Assembly (NCBI GenBank): GCA_026127925.1 | Contig: JAJSLM010000001.1 | Coordinates: 310,001 to 374,000, forward strand | DNA length: 64,000 nucleotides | Direction: 5' to 3' | Source: Thermoplasmatales archaeon | GTDB taxonomy: Archaea; Thermoplasmatota; Thermoplasmata; Thermoplasmatales; Thermoplasmataceae | In this document: in pieces, positions 5,289 to 39,882 of the stretch | How the letters are laid out: each line of letters begins with the position of its first letter | Position numbering within the stretch: position 1 is the first letter of the stretch | Made by a program: the position numbers and the translations under genes | The notes under the pieces: generated by a model | What the model was told of the DNA's origin: nothing | Seen by the model: the letters and a program-made list of their open reading frames with translations, nothing else | The model's database searches: none

Positions 5289-5711
5289 TTATTGGATTGC
5301 GTTTGTTATCGCCAACTGGAGTCTTAGGAGAAATTTTTTCATTCTCGCAGGAGTGCACTCAACAACATTGTTTCTGAATTCAACATCTGTCATCTTTTTC
5401 TCATTATTTTCCGAGACTAAGACATGAAAGGAGGAAATATTGTCAATTTCGTCCAACGAGGGTAAATCATCAAATACACCATCATTCCCGTCCTGCAAAG
5501 GTTCCACAAATTCAACAAATTGAATAGTGTAATTGAAATTGTCAGCGCTAAGGGATATTTCCATATCTTCCGATTTCGATAGTAACTCCACTAACTTCGT
5601 CACAACTGACCTAGAGATTAGTGGAGCATGATCTGATAGATCTTCTTCTTTTAGTTTATCCATCTCTTTTCTAATCAAACTTTCGTGGTTTTGAATTTTA
5701 TCGTTGGCCAT
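5289..5711 (-). CDS. Hypothetical acidic soluble protein, 140 aa
   Basis: I do not recognise this protein. It is 140 residues, acidic, with no membrane segment or signal peptide. The N-terminal 40 residues are charged and probably helical (RKEMDKLKEEDLSDHAPL). A central acidic stretch (QDGNDGVFDDLPSLDEID) lies around 85-105. The C-terminus is a basic amphipathic helix (ARMKKFLLRLQLAITNAIQ). The start ATG at 5711-5709 follows GGACAGGAATAAACC, and the promoter carries a 7-bp inverted repeat. The isolated position between a tRNA and unrelated genes suggests a lineage-specific gene. Confidence 0.6.
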   Translation of the reverse strand: MANDKIQNHESLIRKEMDKLKEEDLSDHAPLISRSVVTKLVELLSKSEDMEISLSADNFNYTIQFVEFVEPLQDGNDGVFDDLPSLDEIDNISSFHVLVSENNEKKMTDVEFRNNVVECTPARMKKFLLRLQLAITNAIQ

Positions 5712-5740
5712 GGTTTATTCCTGTCCGCAACTATATCTTG

Positions 5741-5760
5741 TGCAGATATATTAATCTGCA
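5741..5760 (-). promoter_or_regulatory. Inverted repeat overlapping a TATA box
   Basis: TGCAGATATATTAATCTGCA is an inverted repeat with 7-bp perfect arms (TGCAGAT/ATCTGCA) and a 6-bp spacer. The TATA-like core TTAATATAT on the minus strand lies within it, 35-45 bases upstream of the ATG of the unknown 140-residue protein. Occupancy would compete with TBP, as expected for an archaeal repressor operator. Confidence 0.5.
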
Positions 5761-5992
5761 AATTACCTTTAACAGATTTGCTAGCATCTCCACATCAGAT
5801 AATTTGTAGTTCCAGAAACTGCATAGGACCTTCAGTAATATCTTTTTGGATACGGAAGGTCCAGTTAAAATAGTCTCTGAGGTTATGCAATAGAATCGAT
5901 ACTAACACAGGATAGAATGTTAAATCATATTGGAGAAATGAAGTAAACTATGTCGATAAGCGCACTTATACACTAGACGTGATAAATTGATT

Positions 5993-6478
5993 CTAGTCTT
6001 CGCTGATTAGCTTACCATAGGTACTAATCATTTCTCTGAAACCCAAGCTTTCATAGAAAGCAAGAGCCATTGGATTTCGGGAAGGGAATTCCGCTGAAAC
6101 AAGGTTTACGTGGTACTCTTTTAGCATCTGGACTAGTTTATTGTAAATGGTTCTGGCAACGTCTTTTCTCCTGAACTCTGGCATTACGTAAAAATCTGTT
6201 ATTCTTGCTTCTTTGTCTGGCGTGTAGTACATTCTCTTCATTATATCGACACATATGATGCCTACGACCTTTTTTGAAGACGTGGCAACAAGAGCGATAT
6301 GTTCATCATGTTTTTCAACTTTTGATTCCAGGTGCTTAATAACGTCTTCTTTGGCTTTATCCGATGTCAGAAACGCGGAATCAAATTCTCCATTTATCCT
6401 CTTCTGGCGCAATAATAGATCTGTGGCTTGTTCAAAATCACTCCTTTCGAGCCTTCTTATTTCAAAACTGTTTTTCAA
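5993..6478 (-). CDS. GNAT family N-acetyltransferase
   Basis: A 161-residue single-domain GNAT enzyme that would transfer an acetyl group from acetyl-CoA to an amine. The core shows the beta4-alpha3 acetyl-CoA region DFYVMPEFRRKDVARTIYNKL (about 90-115) and the late motif NLVSAEFPSRNPMALAFYESLGF near the end. The pyrophosphate loop is RRKDVA instead of the classic Q/R-x-x-G-x-G/A, within known variation. It starts with TTG one base after the malic enzyme stop, with GGAGG inside the end of that gene, so the two are co-translated. The substrate is unknown; acetylation of malic enzyme itself is only a thought. Confidence 0.85.
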   Translation of the reverse strand: MKNSFEIRRLERSDFEQATDLLLRQKRINGEFDSAFLTSDKAKEDVIKHLESKVEKHDEHIALVATSSKKVVGIICVDIMKRMYYTPDKEARITDFYVMPEFRRKDVARTIYNKLVQMLKEYHVNLVSAEFPSRNPMALAFYESLGFREMISTYGKLISED

Positions 6479-34525: not shown

Positions 34526-35974
34526 TTAACTAAACCCCTTCTCAGTCATCCTAAAAACGGCAAAGTTCAGGATTTTAGGATAGAACAAGAAGATCAGGGA
34601 CAGTATAATTACTCCAAGAGCCACATAAACAGATAGCATGAAAAAGAATGCAGAAACGCCACCAATTATCATTCCACCAATACTGACGGGGGCGTAAAGA
34701 ATCTGCTTTGCATTTCTTTGTGGCGTTATAAACTCTGGATCTTTAATCTGGAATACACCAACGACCATTGTCGTCATTATCAGCAAAATCACCATCATTG
34801 GTGCGTCAATAAATTCGACCACGGCCAATCCAAGAATATTCAGATGGAATACTAAGTAAATGAACAAAACTGAAATTCCTATTGGGCCTGTTATCGCAAG
34901 ACTCCTAATCATTCGCCCATAGATGACATATCTTATGTACACCGCGGGTTTTATGGAAGTAAATGATACCCAGGCTCTTTCAGAGGAAAGCGCGTTATAG
35001 GCAAAGGTATACAGGAACATAAGCGAGTACATCCCCACAAAAATATACAATTCTCTTATCCCCGCTACCATGTGGAAGAAGTAGGAAATTAGGAATAAAA
35101 CAACGCCAGCAAGAGTCCCAACGCCAATAAGTGCAAAGATACCTAAACCTTTGTGAACTCCAACGTTTCTTTCAGAACTGAATGTTCTTCTTGACGAAAC
35201 GATTGAAGTTTTTGTAAGATTAAATATGAGCATTGCTTTCCCGGGAGTCGTATTATCAAATACTCTCTTTCCGTTAGTCGAGACTTTTTTTGCCCTCTCA
35301 CTCTTTTGGGCCCCGCTGATTGTAAGTTTCAAGGTATCAATATCTGCATTTTTTAACTGGACATAGGCGTAGAAAGTCAGGAGAGAAGTTAACGCGACAA
35401 GCATGGCTGTCCCAGAGTATATGTCCCCAAAAATGTAGGATGCCGGAGAAAAACCAAATCCCAACAGGGAAAATAGCTCCCAACCCGAAACAGCGACAAG
35501 AGCAAGTATCTTTCTTCGAACTGTGTATTTAGAAACAGATATACTAAGCGAGGTGATTAGAATGGAAGCTACTATGGTATCAACTATAACGAAAACTCTA
35601 TCTAATAGGACTGGAGCTACTAATCCCACAATATAGAGGTTTGATATTAAGAAAATAATTCCGATAAACAAATACTTACTTGTGTAGAGTGCAAACGCAA
35701 TAGCACGTTTTGAAACAGGTGAAGTGAAGAGAAAGTCCGTATCCGACCGAATTATTGGATAGGAACTATTGAGACCATAAATGATTGTGAATAAAACCAA
35801 TATTCCCAAAACTATGTATCCAAATATGTGCAATAATATAATCGGTTCTTTTGGTGGGAAAAATGAGATCTCTGCAAAAGCATAAGCTAAGAGCAATCCG
35901 AAAAGAACAAGATAGGCGGTAGTGAACCTGGTTCTAATTATTAAAGAAAATAACGAACGAGACATTTCTCTCAC
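34526..35974 (-). CDS. ABC exporter permease subunit (paralogue of 24343-25815)
   Basis: A 482-residue polytopic membrane protein with about ten to twelve TM helices and a charged loop near 220-260. It shares RSDTDFLFTSPVSKRA near residue 75 and GVFQIKDPEFITPQRNAKQ near 415 with the orphan paralogue. Located 61 bp downstream of an ABC ATPase gene on the same strand, it most likely forms an export complex with it. The transported substrate is unknown. Its ATG follows the sequence CTCACCGAA-type spacer without a strong Shine-Dalgarno site. Confidence 0.78.
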   Translation of the reverse strand: MREMSRSLFSLIIRTRFTTAYLVLFGLLLAYAFAEISFFPPKEPIILLHIFGYIVLGILVLFTIIYGLNSSYPIIRSDTDFLFTSPVSKRAIAFALYTSKYLFIGIIFLISNLYIVGLVAPVLLDRVFVIVDTIVASILITSLSISVSKYTVRRKILALVAVSGWELFSLLGFGFSPASYIFGDIYSGTAMLVALTSLLTFYAYVQLKNADIDTLKLTISGAQKSERAKKVSTNGKRVFDNTTPGKAMLIFNLTKTSIVSSRRTFSSERNVGVHKGLGIFALIGVGTLAGVVLFLISYFFHMVAGIRELYIFVGMYSLMFLYTFAYNALSSERAWVSFTSIKPAVYIRYVIYGRMIRSLAITGPIGISVLFIYLVFHLNILGLAVVEFIDAPMMVILLIMTTMVVGVFQIKDPEFITPQRNAKQILYAPVSIGGMIIGGVSAFFFMLSVYVALGVIILSLIFLFYPKILNFAVFRMTEKGFS

Positions 35975-36035
35975 CGAACGATTTCTGTTTCACTCATTTT
36001 ATCCACTCATATTTTTTACAATTATTCGTATTCCA

Positions 36036-36779
36036 TTACGAAATGCCTCTTGTCATGATCCTTTCCACAACGTCTTCTATGCGTTCGTCAACAGTTGCTA
36101 AATCCTGAAGTTCTTTAATACTCCCCTGCCAGGTGATTTTCCCATGGCTCAGTATTATGACGTTTTTGGTTAATCTTGTTGCTATTTCCATAATGTGTGT
36201 AGAGACAAAATACGTTGCATTGAGTTTTTCAAGCAGCCTTATGACTGCGCTCTGAGTCGGGATATCAAGATAATTTAACGGCTCATCAAGTAAAATTACT
36301 TTTGGGTTATGAACGATAGCAAGAGCTACTGATACTTTCTGCCTATTCCCTCTGCTCAACGTTACAACCTTGGAATGTTCATACTCGAACAGATCTAGTT
36401 GTGACATCAGTTCACCTGCTCTCTGATAGGCATCTTTTATTCCCCTAAGTGCAGCAATGTACTCTATGTTCTCTCTCACAGTTAACGTGGGATAAGGATA
36501 GGCATCTTCAGGCAAATAGCCAAATATTCTTTTTGCTTCTGTGCTTGTTGGATCAAAACCACCTATTTTTGCTTCCCCGGAGGTCGGTTTCAAAAGTCCA
36601 ACTAAAATCTTTAAAGTAGTCGATTTCCCCGCTCCATTGGGGCCAAGAAGTGCATATCTGTCCCCGCATGAAATTTTAAAAGTAACCTCATCCAACGCCG
36701 TGACAGTGGGGAAGTTCTTTACTACATGGTCAAATTCTATACAGTTTCCAGTTAACAATTCCTCCAATTTTAGCCACAC
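36036..36779 (-). CDS. ABC transporter ATP-binding protein
   Basis: A 247-residue nucleotide-binding domain. Walker A GPNGAGKST at 46-54, the Q-loop position reads YLPED (Glu in place of Gln), the signature is LSRGN (141-145) in place of LSGGQ, Walker B is VILLDEP with Asp165-Glu166, and the H-loop is VSTHIME. It pairs with the downstream permease. The start is GTG 36779; GGAGG followed by TTG seven codons in is an alternative. Strong AT elements (TTATATAATAAAATATTAAAAG) lie at about 36836-36815. Confidence 0.9.
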   Translation of the reverse strand: MWLKLEELLTGNCIEFDHVVKNFPTVTALDEVTFKISCGDRYALLGPNGAGKSTTLKILVGLLKPTSGEAKIGGFDPTSTEAKRIFGYLPEDAYPYPTLTVRENIEYIAALRGIKDAYQRAGELMSQLDLFEYEHSKVVTLSRGNRQKVSVALAIVHNPKVILLDEPLNYLDIPTQSAVIRLLEKLNATYFVSTHIMEIATRLTKNVIILSHGKITWQGSIKELQDLATVDERIEDVVERIMTRGIS

Positions 36780-37059: not shown

Positions 37060-37428
37060 CTATTTTTGAGGAGTTCCATCGGCAGAAAAAGTAGAGTTTT
37101 TTTCTTCTTTATCCTCCAACTCCAACTCGTTAATTGCTGAAATGTATTTGCGAACAGTTTCGAATCCCTTTTCCGTAATCTTAATTGTTACTCTTTTTGA
37201 TGAGAAGAATGAATGCTCAATGATTGTAACATAGCCTGATGAACTTAACTTCAGGAGGTGATTACCTAAACTCCCCTTTGCGAGTCCCGTGAGTTTTGAC
37301 AATTCAGTAAAACCAAGCTTTCTGTTCATGGACAATGATATGAGAATAAGAAGACGAGGAGATGATTTAAGAGCTCTATCATTAAAGATCGAAGACAGTC
37401 TTTTCAAAGAATCTGGTTCATTAGTCAT
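37060..37428 (-). CDS. Winged-helix transcriptional regulator (MarR/ArsR-like)
   Basis: 122 residues. The winged helix-turn-helix spans about 20-95: SSPRLLILISLSMNRKLGFTELSKLTGLAKGSLGNHLLKLSSSGYV with recognition helix KGSLGNHLLKL and wing SSKRVTIKITEKG. The C-terminus is acidic then polar. No metal ligands or ligand domain were seen. It is the last gene of an ABC ATPase-permease-membrane protein-regulator operon; its ATG overlaps the preceding stop by 8 bp (ATGACTAA). It is probably a local repressor acting on the dyads just downstream or at the operon promoter. Confidence 0.85.
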   Translation of the reverse strand: MTNEPDSLKRLSSIFNDRALKSSPRLLILISLSMNRKLGFTELSKLTGLAKGSLGNHLLKLSSSGYVTIIEHSFFSSKRVTIKITEKGFETVRKYISAINELELEDKEEKNSTFSADGTPQK

Positions 37429-38065
37429 CTATGATCATCACACTCTGGAAATAGGCATTATATATCCCGGCTATGCCGCAAGCCAACCACGTGATTGCTA
37501 CGAGTATCCATACTACAGTTAAAATCAAGTAAATCCCGGACTCAATACCAGCAATACTGATTCCACAACCAGCGACAAAACTAATTAAAGCGACCCATGT
37601 TTCTGGGTGAAATTTTGTCATACTTTTTCTCACGGTGCTGATTATCGCCCAGGGGACAAATAATGCGAGAATAACATACAAAAGCGCAAAATAGCCAACA
37701 AAACCAATTACCGCTAAGAATGTGAGGACAAGCATAACCACCAAAAAAAATAAAATAAAAATGCCCCAGTCCTTCCATGTAGGCTGCTGTTTAAAAATTC
37801 TGGAGACCTTAAACGCCTTGTTGAATATATACCCTGTAAGGAGCATAATAATAAGAGAACTCAAGATGTAAAAGGCGGGGAGAATCCAGTTATTAAGGGA
37901 AAAAACAGGATAAAGTAAACTAGGCAATGTATAAAGGAAGAAGGCTACGGCCCATCCGAGGTAGTAGAGGCCAAACGAACGTCTAAAGATATAATCTTCG
38001 AAGTCAAAGGCTTTTTCTATAAGAGATCTACTTTCTTTCAAATATTTCTCGTCTTCAGAGATCAT
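37421..38065 (-). CDS. Hypothetical membrane protein, about six TM helices
   Basis: 214 residues with a charged N-terminal helix (SEDEKYLKESRSLIEKAFDFEDYIFRR) and then six hydrophobic segments at roughly 33-53, 60-80, 100-120, 122-142, 155-173 and 178-202. I do not recognise a family. It is encoded between the ABC permease (overlap of 4 bp) and the winged-helix regulator (overlap of 8 bp). It may be a sensor or accessory subunit of the transporter, as in small-molecule or lipid-stress export loci; that is inference from context. Confidence 0.7.
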   Translation of the reverse strand: MISEDEKYLKESRSLIEKAFDFEDYIFRRSFGLYYLGWAVAFFLYTLPSLLYPVFSLNNWILPAFYILSSLIIMLLTGYIFNKAFKVSRIFKQQPTWKDWGIFILFFLVVMLVLTFLAVIGFVGYFALLYVILALFVPWAIISTVRKSMTKFHPETWVALISFVAGCGISIAGIESGIYLILTVVWILVAITWLACGIAGIYNAYFQSVMIIDD

Positions 38066-38868
38066 ATCTGCCTCATCCCCTCGGTGTCCTGTGGCTTAAT
38101 GTGCCTGAAAATATAAATATCTATCGCAAATAACACCAGTTCCCATAGAACAAGGCTCATCAAGAGGGTGAACCAGCTTAGGGTTTCAGGATGAGACGAA
38201 ACAAAACTGCTTATCGGTTGTTGATTTGCAAAGGCAGCCTGGATAAGGCTCGGCCCTGAGTTCCATGGAGATAAGTACATCAACAGTTTTGGCGGAGAAG
38301 CATAAATCATAAGATAGCTTAATGAAAAAACTAGAACCATGGGTATGAATGATAGAAATTGTACGATCTTTACGTTACCGTATGAGATCACGAGTAGAAC
38401 AAGCATTACAGATATGAGCATGAAGAAGACCCCAACAAGTACAGCGATTCCAAAGGTCTTCAAAAAGGATAGATATGTGGGGAAGACATTTACTTTTAAA
38501 GAAAGGTAGAACATGGAGGCTGTAAAAACAATCCCTATCACGACCAGAACCAGTGAGACAAAAATCCACGCAAGTAGAAGATCCAGAAGGTACCTTGATC
38601 TCAAAAGTTTCGTATATTTGAATGAGAATATTAGTGCATTTGTTGACCACGCCATTGACATGGCTAATGTTACGGAAACAGAGGAAAATGAGATTAGGGC
38701 TATCAATGCGTACCAAGCCGAAGTAATGGGCATAGCAGTTAAAGGCGTGAGGAAGGATCTATCCATGACAAATGCACCTAATGCCGCCCACATTAAACTG
38801 AAGAACCCTCCCCAGAACCAGAGAAATTTGTTTGTCACCAACGAATGAAAATAATATTTGGCAATCAT
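38062..38868 (-). CDS. ABC-2 type transporter permease
   Basis: 268 residues with six predicted TM helices (about 15-35, 50-70, 95-120, 138-165, 172-192, 233-253), the ABC-2 layout of exporters. No signature residues define the substrate. The ATG overlaps the stop of the ATPase gene by four bases (ATGA) and its own stop overlaps the next membrane protein start. Operon position two of four. Confidence 0.8.
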   Translation of the reverse strand: MIAKYYFHSLVTNKFLWFWGGFFSLMWAALGAFVMDRSFLTPLTAMPITSAWYALIALISFSSVSVTLAMSMAWSTNALIFSFKYTKLLRSRYLLDLLLAWIFVSLVLVVIGIVFTASMFYLSLKVNVFPTYLSFLKTFGIAVLVGVFFMLISVMLVLLVISYGNVKIVQFLSFIPMVLVFSLSYLMIYASPPKLLMYLSPWNSGPSLIQAAFANQQPISSFVSSHPETLSWFTLLMSLVLWELVLFAIDIYIFRHIKPQDTEGMRQI

Positions 38869-39671
38869 TTAACCACGTCCTGTATTGAATTTACTAAATC
38901 TGTTGAGGACGACAGAGGGGTATCTCCCTTATCCAGGGTTACGCAGAAAGTGCCGTAACATGTTCGGATAGTTGAAAGTGCTGATGGCACGTCCCCCCTG
39001 GTAAGGTATAACCTGTTTATGTCACTCGAATTAAACTTGCCATACAAATTACCATCAATTATTAAGTAAAGCCCCCAATCCGGAAGCGATTTTAAGGCGC
39101 CGAAATCGTGTGTGTTTATAAGCACACTGCCTTGAAAGTTTTTCAGGTCATTTACCATCATGAGCCGTCTGCGCACATCAAGACTCTCAAATGGTTCATC
39201 AAGAAGAGCAAGTTTATATCCAATCTCCAAAGCCATTATGTTGCAGAATGCCTTATCCTGTCCTGTGCTAAGTTCATTTGTTCTTTTTGTAAGTACATCC
39301 AATAGTTCGTAACTCTCAAAGTGTTTGAAAACCTTTTCAGAATCGATACCGGATATAGAACAGTACATCTCTACCTTTTTTTTCACAGTAAGATCTAATA
39401 GACGATAGACGGTGTCAAGGTTACACGCGACACCCGTCACGCTATTTGCATTTTTAAGATCAATGCCAAATACTCTTATCTCACCTTTTGTTGTCTTTGC
39501 GAGGCCCATGATACCCTTTATCATCGTGGTCTTCCCAGATCCGTTTGAGCCAACTATTGCAATTTTCTCAGAATCAATACGAAGGTTTATGTTTGAAAGA
39601 ACATTTTTCATACCCTTCGAATACGCCAAACTTATGTCATTTAATTCGAGTTCCATTTGAAGTGTTATCAA
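38865..39671 (-). CDS. ABC transporter ATP-binding protein, divergent
   Basis: 268 residues. Walker A GSNGSGKTT (41-49), signature LSTGQ (134-138), Walker B LALLDEP (Asp158-Glu159), H-loop INTHD. The Q-loop glutamine is missing: the region reads GVACNLDTVYR. The C-terminal ~50 residues extend beyond the NBD and hold two cysteines (RTCYGTFC). The start is TTG 39671, or ATG 39656 five codons in. A TATA-like TCAATATAG lies near 39720-39712. First gene of the regulator-containing operon. Confidence 0.88.
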   Translation of the reverse strand: MITLQMELELNDISLAYSKGMKNVLSNINLRIDSEKIAIVGSNGSGKTTMIKGIMGLAKTTKGEIRVFGIDLKNANSVTGVACNLDTVYRLLDLTVKKKVEMYCSISGIDSEKVFKHFESYELLDVLTKRTNELSTGQDKAFCNIMALEIGYKLALLDEPFESLDVRRRLMMVNDLKNFQGSVLINTHDFGALKSLPDWGLYLIIDGNLYGKFNSSDINRLYLTRGDVPSALSTIRTCYGTFCVTLDKGDTPLSSSTDLVNSIQDVVK

Positions 39672-39882
39672 GTTTCATTATTAGAATGGATTCAGGTGTC
39701 TAAATTTCAGACTATATTGAATAGCGAATCGTGAATAGAAGTCCCCCTATCATCTAGCGATCCCTATATCTAATCGTTAGCAGCAAAAACATTCATCACA
39801 TTCAGTTTCTCTCACTAGCGGGTTCCTTCATCCATCTTAACAAGGTTTATAAGCAAAGCATTTATCACATTGAGCTTAATAT
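39672..39882. promoter_or_regulatory. Divergent spacer: ABC operon / tRNA-Lys promoters
   Basis: The minus-strand TATA-like TCAATATAGT is at 39720-39711. It is flanked by the weak dyad GTCTAAATTTCAGAC (39698-39712). On the plus strand GGTTTATAAGC (39844-39854) precedes tRNA-Lys by about 30 bases. An imperfect 16-bp direct repeat, CATTCATCACATTCAG (39790-39805) and CATTTATCACATTGAG (39859-39874), differs at two positions. Nothing coding was seen. Confidence 0.4.

Follow-up and report, generated by a model that had tools for sequence, protein, structure and literature searches.

The Thermoplasmatales archaeon analyzed here (assembly GCA_026127925.1; a genome of 1.73 Mb, 98% complete) carries, in a 64,000-nucleotide stretch of contig JAJSLM010000001.1 (the window), a cassette of four genes encoding an ATP-binding cassette (ABC) ATPase, an ABC-2 type permease, a six-helix membrane protein (TM6), and a winged-helix regulator (REG). 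This locus is probably a one-operon variant of the regulon formed by TFB-RF1, PF1089, and an ABC exporter in Pyrococcus furiosus, equipped with its own sensor-activator switch. The original prediction, made from the DNA sequence alone, had described four overlapping genes for an exporter with a dedicated sensor, perhaps an undescribed subtype. The genes do overlap, by 4, 4, and 8 bp, all on the minus strand, and an exporter with its regulator is the best-supported reading, whereas the sensor is a part that we infer. The supposed novelty is narrower than proposed, since the passages of PMC5937170 available to us give a precedent in TFB-RF1, both for activation of an ABC-2 exporter and for co-transcription with a membrane protein, and the ATPase class has a solved member; what would be new is the single-operon variant.

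In P. furiosus, the gene for TFB-RF1 (PF1088) follows the membrane-protein gene pf1089, with which it is co-transcribed, and TFB-RF1 activates this operon and the ABC-2 exporter operon pf1011/pf1012 (PMC5937170, citing Ochs et al. 2012) by recruiting TFB to a weak B recognition element (BRE). Its motif in Thermococcales promoters, TCTGAANTTCAGA, is a 13-nt palindrome just upstream of BRE and TATA box (PMC5937170). During normal growth the Pyrococcus operon is expressed at an extremely low level, and a plasmid-borne extra TFB-RF1 raised it 54-fold on pyruvate (PMC5937170). In the passages of that paper available, the mechanism is described in detail while the physiological role of TFB-RF1, its inducing conditions, and the role of its membrane partner are left open; those of PMC10746257 give no inducing condition either. 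The window cassette shares with this regulon a small winged-helix regulator whose gene immediately follows that of a membrane protein (with a gene overlap of 8 bp between TM6 and REG), a palindrome upstream of BRE and TATA, and an ABC-2 exporter among the targets, in the window by virtue of a predicted site. The two differ in that the Pyrococcus exporter is a separate operon whose ATPase has a Q-loop, whereas the window cassette is a single operon with Asn at the Q-loop, and in that PF1089 has four predicted transmembrane (TM) segments against six predicted helices in TM6. No description of the window cassette was found in the portions available of the literature on TFB-RF1, PH1061, ST1066, PF1089, or PadR/DUF1700.

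Profile comparison relates REG to TFB-RF1. Genome searches covered the window's phylum, and Pyrococcus and Sulfolobus proteins entered the comparison through solved structures. Among solved structures, the REG profile matches best to PH1061 of Pyrococcus horikoshii (1UB9, E 2.7e-16), which we take to be the orthologue of PF1088, an assumption supported by the presence of the exact published motif beside PH1061-like genes. More distant REG relatives at ten loci of the same taxonomic order (eight from family f3, one from f6, and one, G115, from the window's own family) are much closer to PH1061 (E 2.7e-28 in the one tested). A protein with 4-6 hydrophobic segments is encoded directly upstream of the regulator in all ten, no ABC gene was detected next to these pairs, and the exact motif lies upstream of the pair in eight, with an 11/13 match in another and a contig end cutting off the last; the motif stands at -24 to -59 from the listed, uncorrected starts. 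Exact copies were found in 13 of 15 genomes searched, while the reversed control pattern was found in none of the 15, and in 10 of the 13 a copy lies at a membrane protein-regulator pair. In genome G010, a second exact copy has its centre 48 bp before an ABC ATPase gene, after which comes an open reading frame (ORF) with multiple TM segments; this is the two-operon layout of Pyrococcus. The remaining exact copies lie inside an ABC ATPase gene (G021) or near no recognized target (G013, G015), and the window's own genome has no exact copy.

The exact motif also lies 30-31 bp before one gene in two genera (L264, centre 3313, in G007; L268, centre 4601, in G022). We presume from its N-terminus that this gene is thiolase-like; it is a possible further target, or a chance occurrence.

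Within the window's order, TM6 (214 residues) was matched in 33 and the permease in 37 of 117 genomes at E 0.001, many of these genomes being incomplete. A neighborhood survey around TM6, which had been proposed together with the original prediction, recovered the ATPase, permease, TM6, and REG in this order on one strand at 27 of 41 loci, a number that includes the window, one record fetched twice (L061/L063), and two loci with one gene split into two ORFs. With the full order at so many of the surveyed loci, the arrangement is not due to chance. Seven of the other loci are truncated by contig ends. In another five the ABC genes run divergently from TM6-REG, L098 contains just a fragment of TM6, and L070 (genome G044) is without TM6 and REG. 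An ORF with multiple TM segments lies directly upstream of 48 of 51 REG ORFs identified by script (REG E <1e-18; duplicate records and near-identical genomes included), the exceptions being L130, where TM6 is present and ORF calling produced an overlap, L191, at a contig start, and L186. At L186 (G064, 5589-6230) the beginning of the ATPase and the end of REG are fused in a 213-aa ORF, and the palindromic site described below is still present at -48, as if permease and TM6 had been lost by an internal deletion.

Judged from their gene contexts, TM6 and REG make up a portable pair. In the window's own genome, a second cassette (L129; contig C2, 5305-8370) has TM6-REG after a permease of the canonical ABC-2 type (PF12679) and an ATPase whose Q-loop position reads PEL, and the pair stands likewise behind a canonical ABC-2 exporter in L190, from the same genus, and in L131. 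At L095 and L134 it lies divergently beside another kind of ATPase, with ALIEDP or ALISDP. The relative G044 has apparently lost both genes and kept only the ATPase and permease (65% and 60% identity): a profile search of this genome gave no TM6 match and, for REG, only a weak one in a 240-residue frame at another place. These contexts bear on an alternative, which we consider unlikely, that TM6 is an accessory subunit of the exporter (a third transporter component or a self-protection protein) and REG works alone. The position of the TM6 gene between permease and regulator, overlapping both, would suit an accessory, but the pair accompanies two kinds of canonical ABC-2 exporter besides the Asn-loop kind, the closer loci pair membrane protein and regulator with no adjoining ABC gene detected, five loci have TM6-REG on the strand opposite to the exporter, and in G044 the exporter persists without TM6. 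A coupling of TM6 to REG, as in the proposed one-operon variant, is the reading that we retain.

A palindrome at a fixed position precedes nearly all of the cassettes examined. In nine aligned promoter rows (UBA582 and G109 being one record and G072 nearly identical), it is kept in eight and missing in G044, the row without TM6 and REG. The window site, GTCTGAAATTTAGAC, contains TCTGAAATTTAGA, which matches 12 of 13 positions of the TFB-RF1 motif, counting N. A palindrome scan over the other cassettes found the same kind of site in the same place: in 41 of 46 promoters, a set that includes near-identical genomes and does not amount to 46 independent cases, a script using corrected starts placed the site centre 47 (24 promoters), 48 (12), or 49 bp (5) before the first start codon. 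Among the five promoters missed by the script, those of G111 and G110 have GTCGAAAATTTAGAC at -47, under the threshold, L131 has GTACAATTTTTGTAC 49 bp before the permease gene, its true first gene, L147 has no site, and the fifth is the G044 promoter. The L129 cassette has a perfect GTTCAAAATTTGAAC site at -48, and across its genome the pattern GTYYRAAWTTYRRAC occurs at two places, exactly at the two cassettes. As a control on position, only 6 of 374 other ORFs of at least 150 aa (called mechanically, so that some are not genes) carry such a site, and on inspection all six belong to cassettes, being the other gene of a divergent promoter or, in L131, the permease gene that actually comes first.

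The geometry is strictest at the divergent loci L092, L094, L096, L097, and L135, where the start codons are 94 bp apart and one palindrome lies exactly 47 bp from each; in L096, L097, and L135 this spacing takes the second in-frame ATG (codon 16) as the TM6 start, and L096 and L135 are near-identical. We interpret these five sequences as natural bidirectional promoters. Across 40 aligned promoters (some divergent ones being counted on each side), A or T makes up 85-100% at positions +19 to +25 relative to the site centre, which places a TATA-like stretch about 22 bp downstream of the site. As this stretch lies about 25 bp before the start codon, it would fit a leaderless transcript. Leaderless transcripts are common in archaea.

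This layout also weighs on a second alternative, which we regard as improbable, namely that REG acts as an ArsR/MarR-type repressor and leaves its operator on binding an inducer or through TM6. REG matches several Pfam families, including HTH_34, ArsR above its cut-off, and MarR weakly, and none of its matches is to PadR; a palindromic site upstream of a regulator's own operon would likewise be expected of such a repressor. Yet the site precedes the TATA-like stretch and keeps a constant distance of 47-49 bp to the start codon, or to both start codons in divergent promoters, and the closest characterized relative is an activator whose site, in the available passages of PMC5937170, is also just upstream of BRE and TATA. 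In addition, REG comprises little beyond the winged helix and so has no obvious ligand pocket. That the locus is an ordinary ABC-2 exporter operon with a hypothetical membrane gene associated by chance is very improbable, since many genera share the gene order and the position of the site and the neighborhood survey contradicts it, even if no convincing family model matches TM6.

Several observations count against assigning the cassettes to the TFB-RF1 system. Most of them have GTTCA-N5-TGAAC, which matches only 4-7 of 13 positions of the Pyrococcus motif, and among the cassettes only the window's clade, together with the ten closer loci, resembles that motif. Cassette L147 has no operator site, and L132 and L133 contain only TM6 fragments, with no intact exporter next to these. 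TM6 and the membrane proteins of the divergent cassettes are distant relatives (hhalign probability 92.8, E 4.1e-7), but the similarity of TM6 to the membrane proteins beside the closer TFB-RF1-type regulators is weak (probability 16.7, E 0.0015). In the window's own genome the motif and a reversed control pattern have 2 matches each, and GTTCA-N5-TGAAC occurs in 72 of 77 genomes of the family, some of them without a detected cassette. Because of these control matches and sites in cassette-free genomes, motif counts alone are not diagnostic, and it is position that tells. Among 14 further GTTCA-N5-TGAAC sites, hand-picked among the matches listed, those at L183, L186, and L190 are 47-48 bp away from where a cassette gene begins; at the remaining 11, no start codon stands at that distance, and these profiles detect no adjoining cassette gene.

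Variation in REG runs partly parallel to that of the sites. In the stretch KGSLxNHL, x is Gly in seven proteins of the window's clade, whose sites are of the GTCT/GTCG type where the promoter is available, Ala in L083 and L084, whose sites are GTACA, and in cassettes of the GTTCA type usually Ser, occasionally Lys or Glu. A recognition code is not claimed, as L089 and L082/L091 do not fit: L089 combines Ser with GTCCA, and L082 combines it with a GTACA/TGAAC hybrid. The correspondence between residue and operator type, which reflects few evolutionary events, is only suggestive. L083 and L084 show two different cassettes next to each other; in the second one, divergent ATPase and permease share a GTACA/GTTCA hybrid site, and the membrane protein is not detected by the TM6 profile.

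The six-TM protein had been called unrecognized, and it remains so: TM6 has no Pfam or NCBIfam match up to E 1, and none of 32 aligned family members, the window protein included, matches Pfam at E 0.01. NCBIfam matches of lone relatives (E 0.0035-0.067; four families, one member each) were treated as chance. The best match to solved structures was at E 3.4 by sequence and, for the predicted model, at E 1.1 by Foldseek. A likeness of the model to ZnT7 (VIA Z at most 9.3, 96 aligned residues, root-mean-square deviation [rmsd] 3.0) was set aside and no fold is claimed, because this Z is below the helical-bundle background of roughly 13 given in the tool's own note. The model (predicted local distance difference test 83.5, predicted TM-score 0.79) has six membrane helices, the first of which continues an N-terminal helix. 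By the positive-inside rule, applied by hand, both termini would be cytoplasmic, as would loops 2 and 4, and sequence conservation peaks in TM1 and cytoplasmic loop 4 and is weakest in the outer loops; an RR-G-YY-W surface on the cytosolic side is also conserved. In this assigned topology the external loops are tiny, so TM6 would have no external sensor domain, and a signal would therefore come from the membrane or the transporter.

By analogy with TFB-RF1, REG would bind the palindrome just upstream of BRE and TATA and activate transcription by helping to recruit TFB, a mode of action with which the position of the site is compatible. We propose that a single operon encodes an ABC-2 exporter and its own two-protein switch, in which TM6 is most likely the signal input. 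In the resting cell TM6 would probably hold REG inactive at the membrane; on sensing the exporter substrate or a membrane disturbance it would release REG, which would then activate the whole operon, the REG gene included. A regulator that activates itself needs a brake, and TM6 as a membrane anti-activator would supply both brake and signal. Sensing by TM6, its binding to REG, the direction of the effect, and the nature of the substrate are all features that we infer. The extremely low expression of the Pyrococcus operon and its 54-fold rise, as described in the available passages of PMC5937170, are compatible with an anti-activator.

More tentatively, TM6-like and TFB-RF1-like proteins may form a general archaeal transmembrane signaling unit, in which a membrane anti-activator sequesters an activator of TFB recruitment. 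Such a unit would be present in Thermococcales and the window's phylum, would move between unrelated ABC-2 exporters, and would depend on a rigid spacing of operator and TATA that can drive two promoters simultaneously; if real, it would explain the role of PF1089 and the signal of TFB-RF1. The cassettes unite regulator, membrane partner, and exporter with a predicted operator of fixed geometry, natural loss of the pair included, and so make the roles of TFB-RF1 and its partner directly testable. The fixed spacing, including a palindrome equidistant from two starts, is in addition a natural data set on the contact between an archaeal activator and the basal machinery. In bacteria, small PadR winged-helix regulators are paired with DUF1700 membrane partners. 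The logic of those pairs is alike, while the window REG and the 32 TM6 members have no match to the corresponding Pfam families.

The exporter components themselves belong to recognizable types. The ATPase contains Walker A, the signature LSTGQ, Walker B, and the H-loop, and the Q-loop Gln, correctly predicted to be missing, is replaced by Asn (N84 in the 268-aa numbering). This Asn is invariant in 32 aligned ATPases (rows picked from those collected, with duplicates and split ORFs omitted), none of which has Gln or the Glu of other ABC-2 ATPases; among ATPase-like ORFs of at least 200 aa, Asn is found throughout this class and Glu, Gln, Asp, or Ser in others. Cysteines are present in the C-terminal tail of the window ATPase, as had been pointed out, but are not conserved in relatives; at the better-aligned Cys position most of the 32 have Ser (GTFS), so the cysteines carry no weight. 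ST1066 of Sulfolobus tokodaii (PDB 2PJZ) is matched by the ATPase profile almost end to end (E 1.7e-64) and, like the window ATPase, has an STNL motif replacing the Q-loop as well as a C-terminal tail. It is a solved member of the Asn-type class. The permease has a predicted NosY-like ABC-2 fold: its model aligns with NosY (7o0y), the permease of the NosDFY ABC transporter, over 224 residues (VIA Z 20.6, rmsd 3.0; Foldseek E 4.5e-5), but identity is only 17-19%, and a fold match shows no function. PF01061 was matched by 3 of 31 permease family members, and the window permease itself has no Pfam family match. Alignment with relatives places the ATPase start at the ATG and not at the listed TTG (Table 1).

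Table 1 Genes and predicted promoter elements of the cassette, in window coordinates
Feature	Coordinates	Strand	Remarks
ABC ATPase	38865..39656	-	263 aa from ATG 39656; listed ORF 38865-39671 extends to TTG 39671
ABC-2 type permease	38062..38868	-	268 aa; NosY-like predicted fold
TM6, six-helix membrane protein	37421..38065	-	214 aa; proposed signal input for REG
REG, winged-helix regulator of PH1061/TFB-RF1 type (HTH_34)	37060..37428	-	122 aa
Predicted REG operator GTCTGAAATTTAGAC (minus strand)	39698..39712		centre 49 bp upstream of ATG 39656
TATA-like box TTCTAATA	39679..39686	-	-30 to -23 from ATG 39656

A second ABC-type pair lies just downstream of the cassette on the same strand (window 34526-36779). 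One member is a 482-aa protein (34526-35974) with no Pfam match up to E 1 and only a self-match among the loci scanned; the other is a DrrA-like ATPase (36036-36779) with Glu at the Q-loop.

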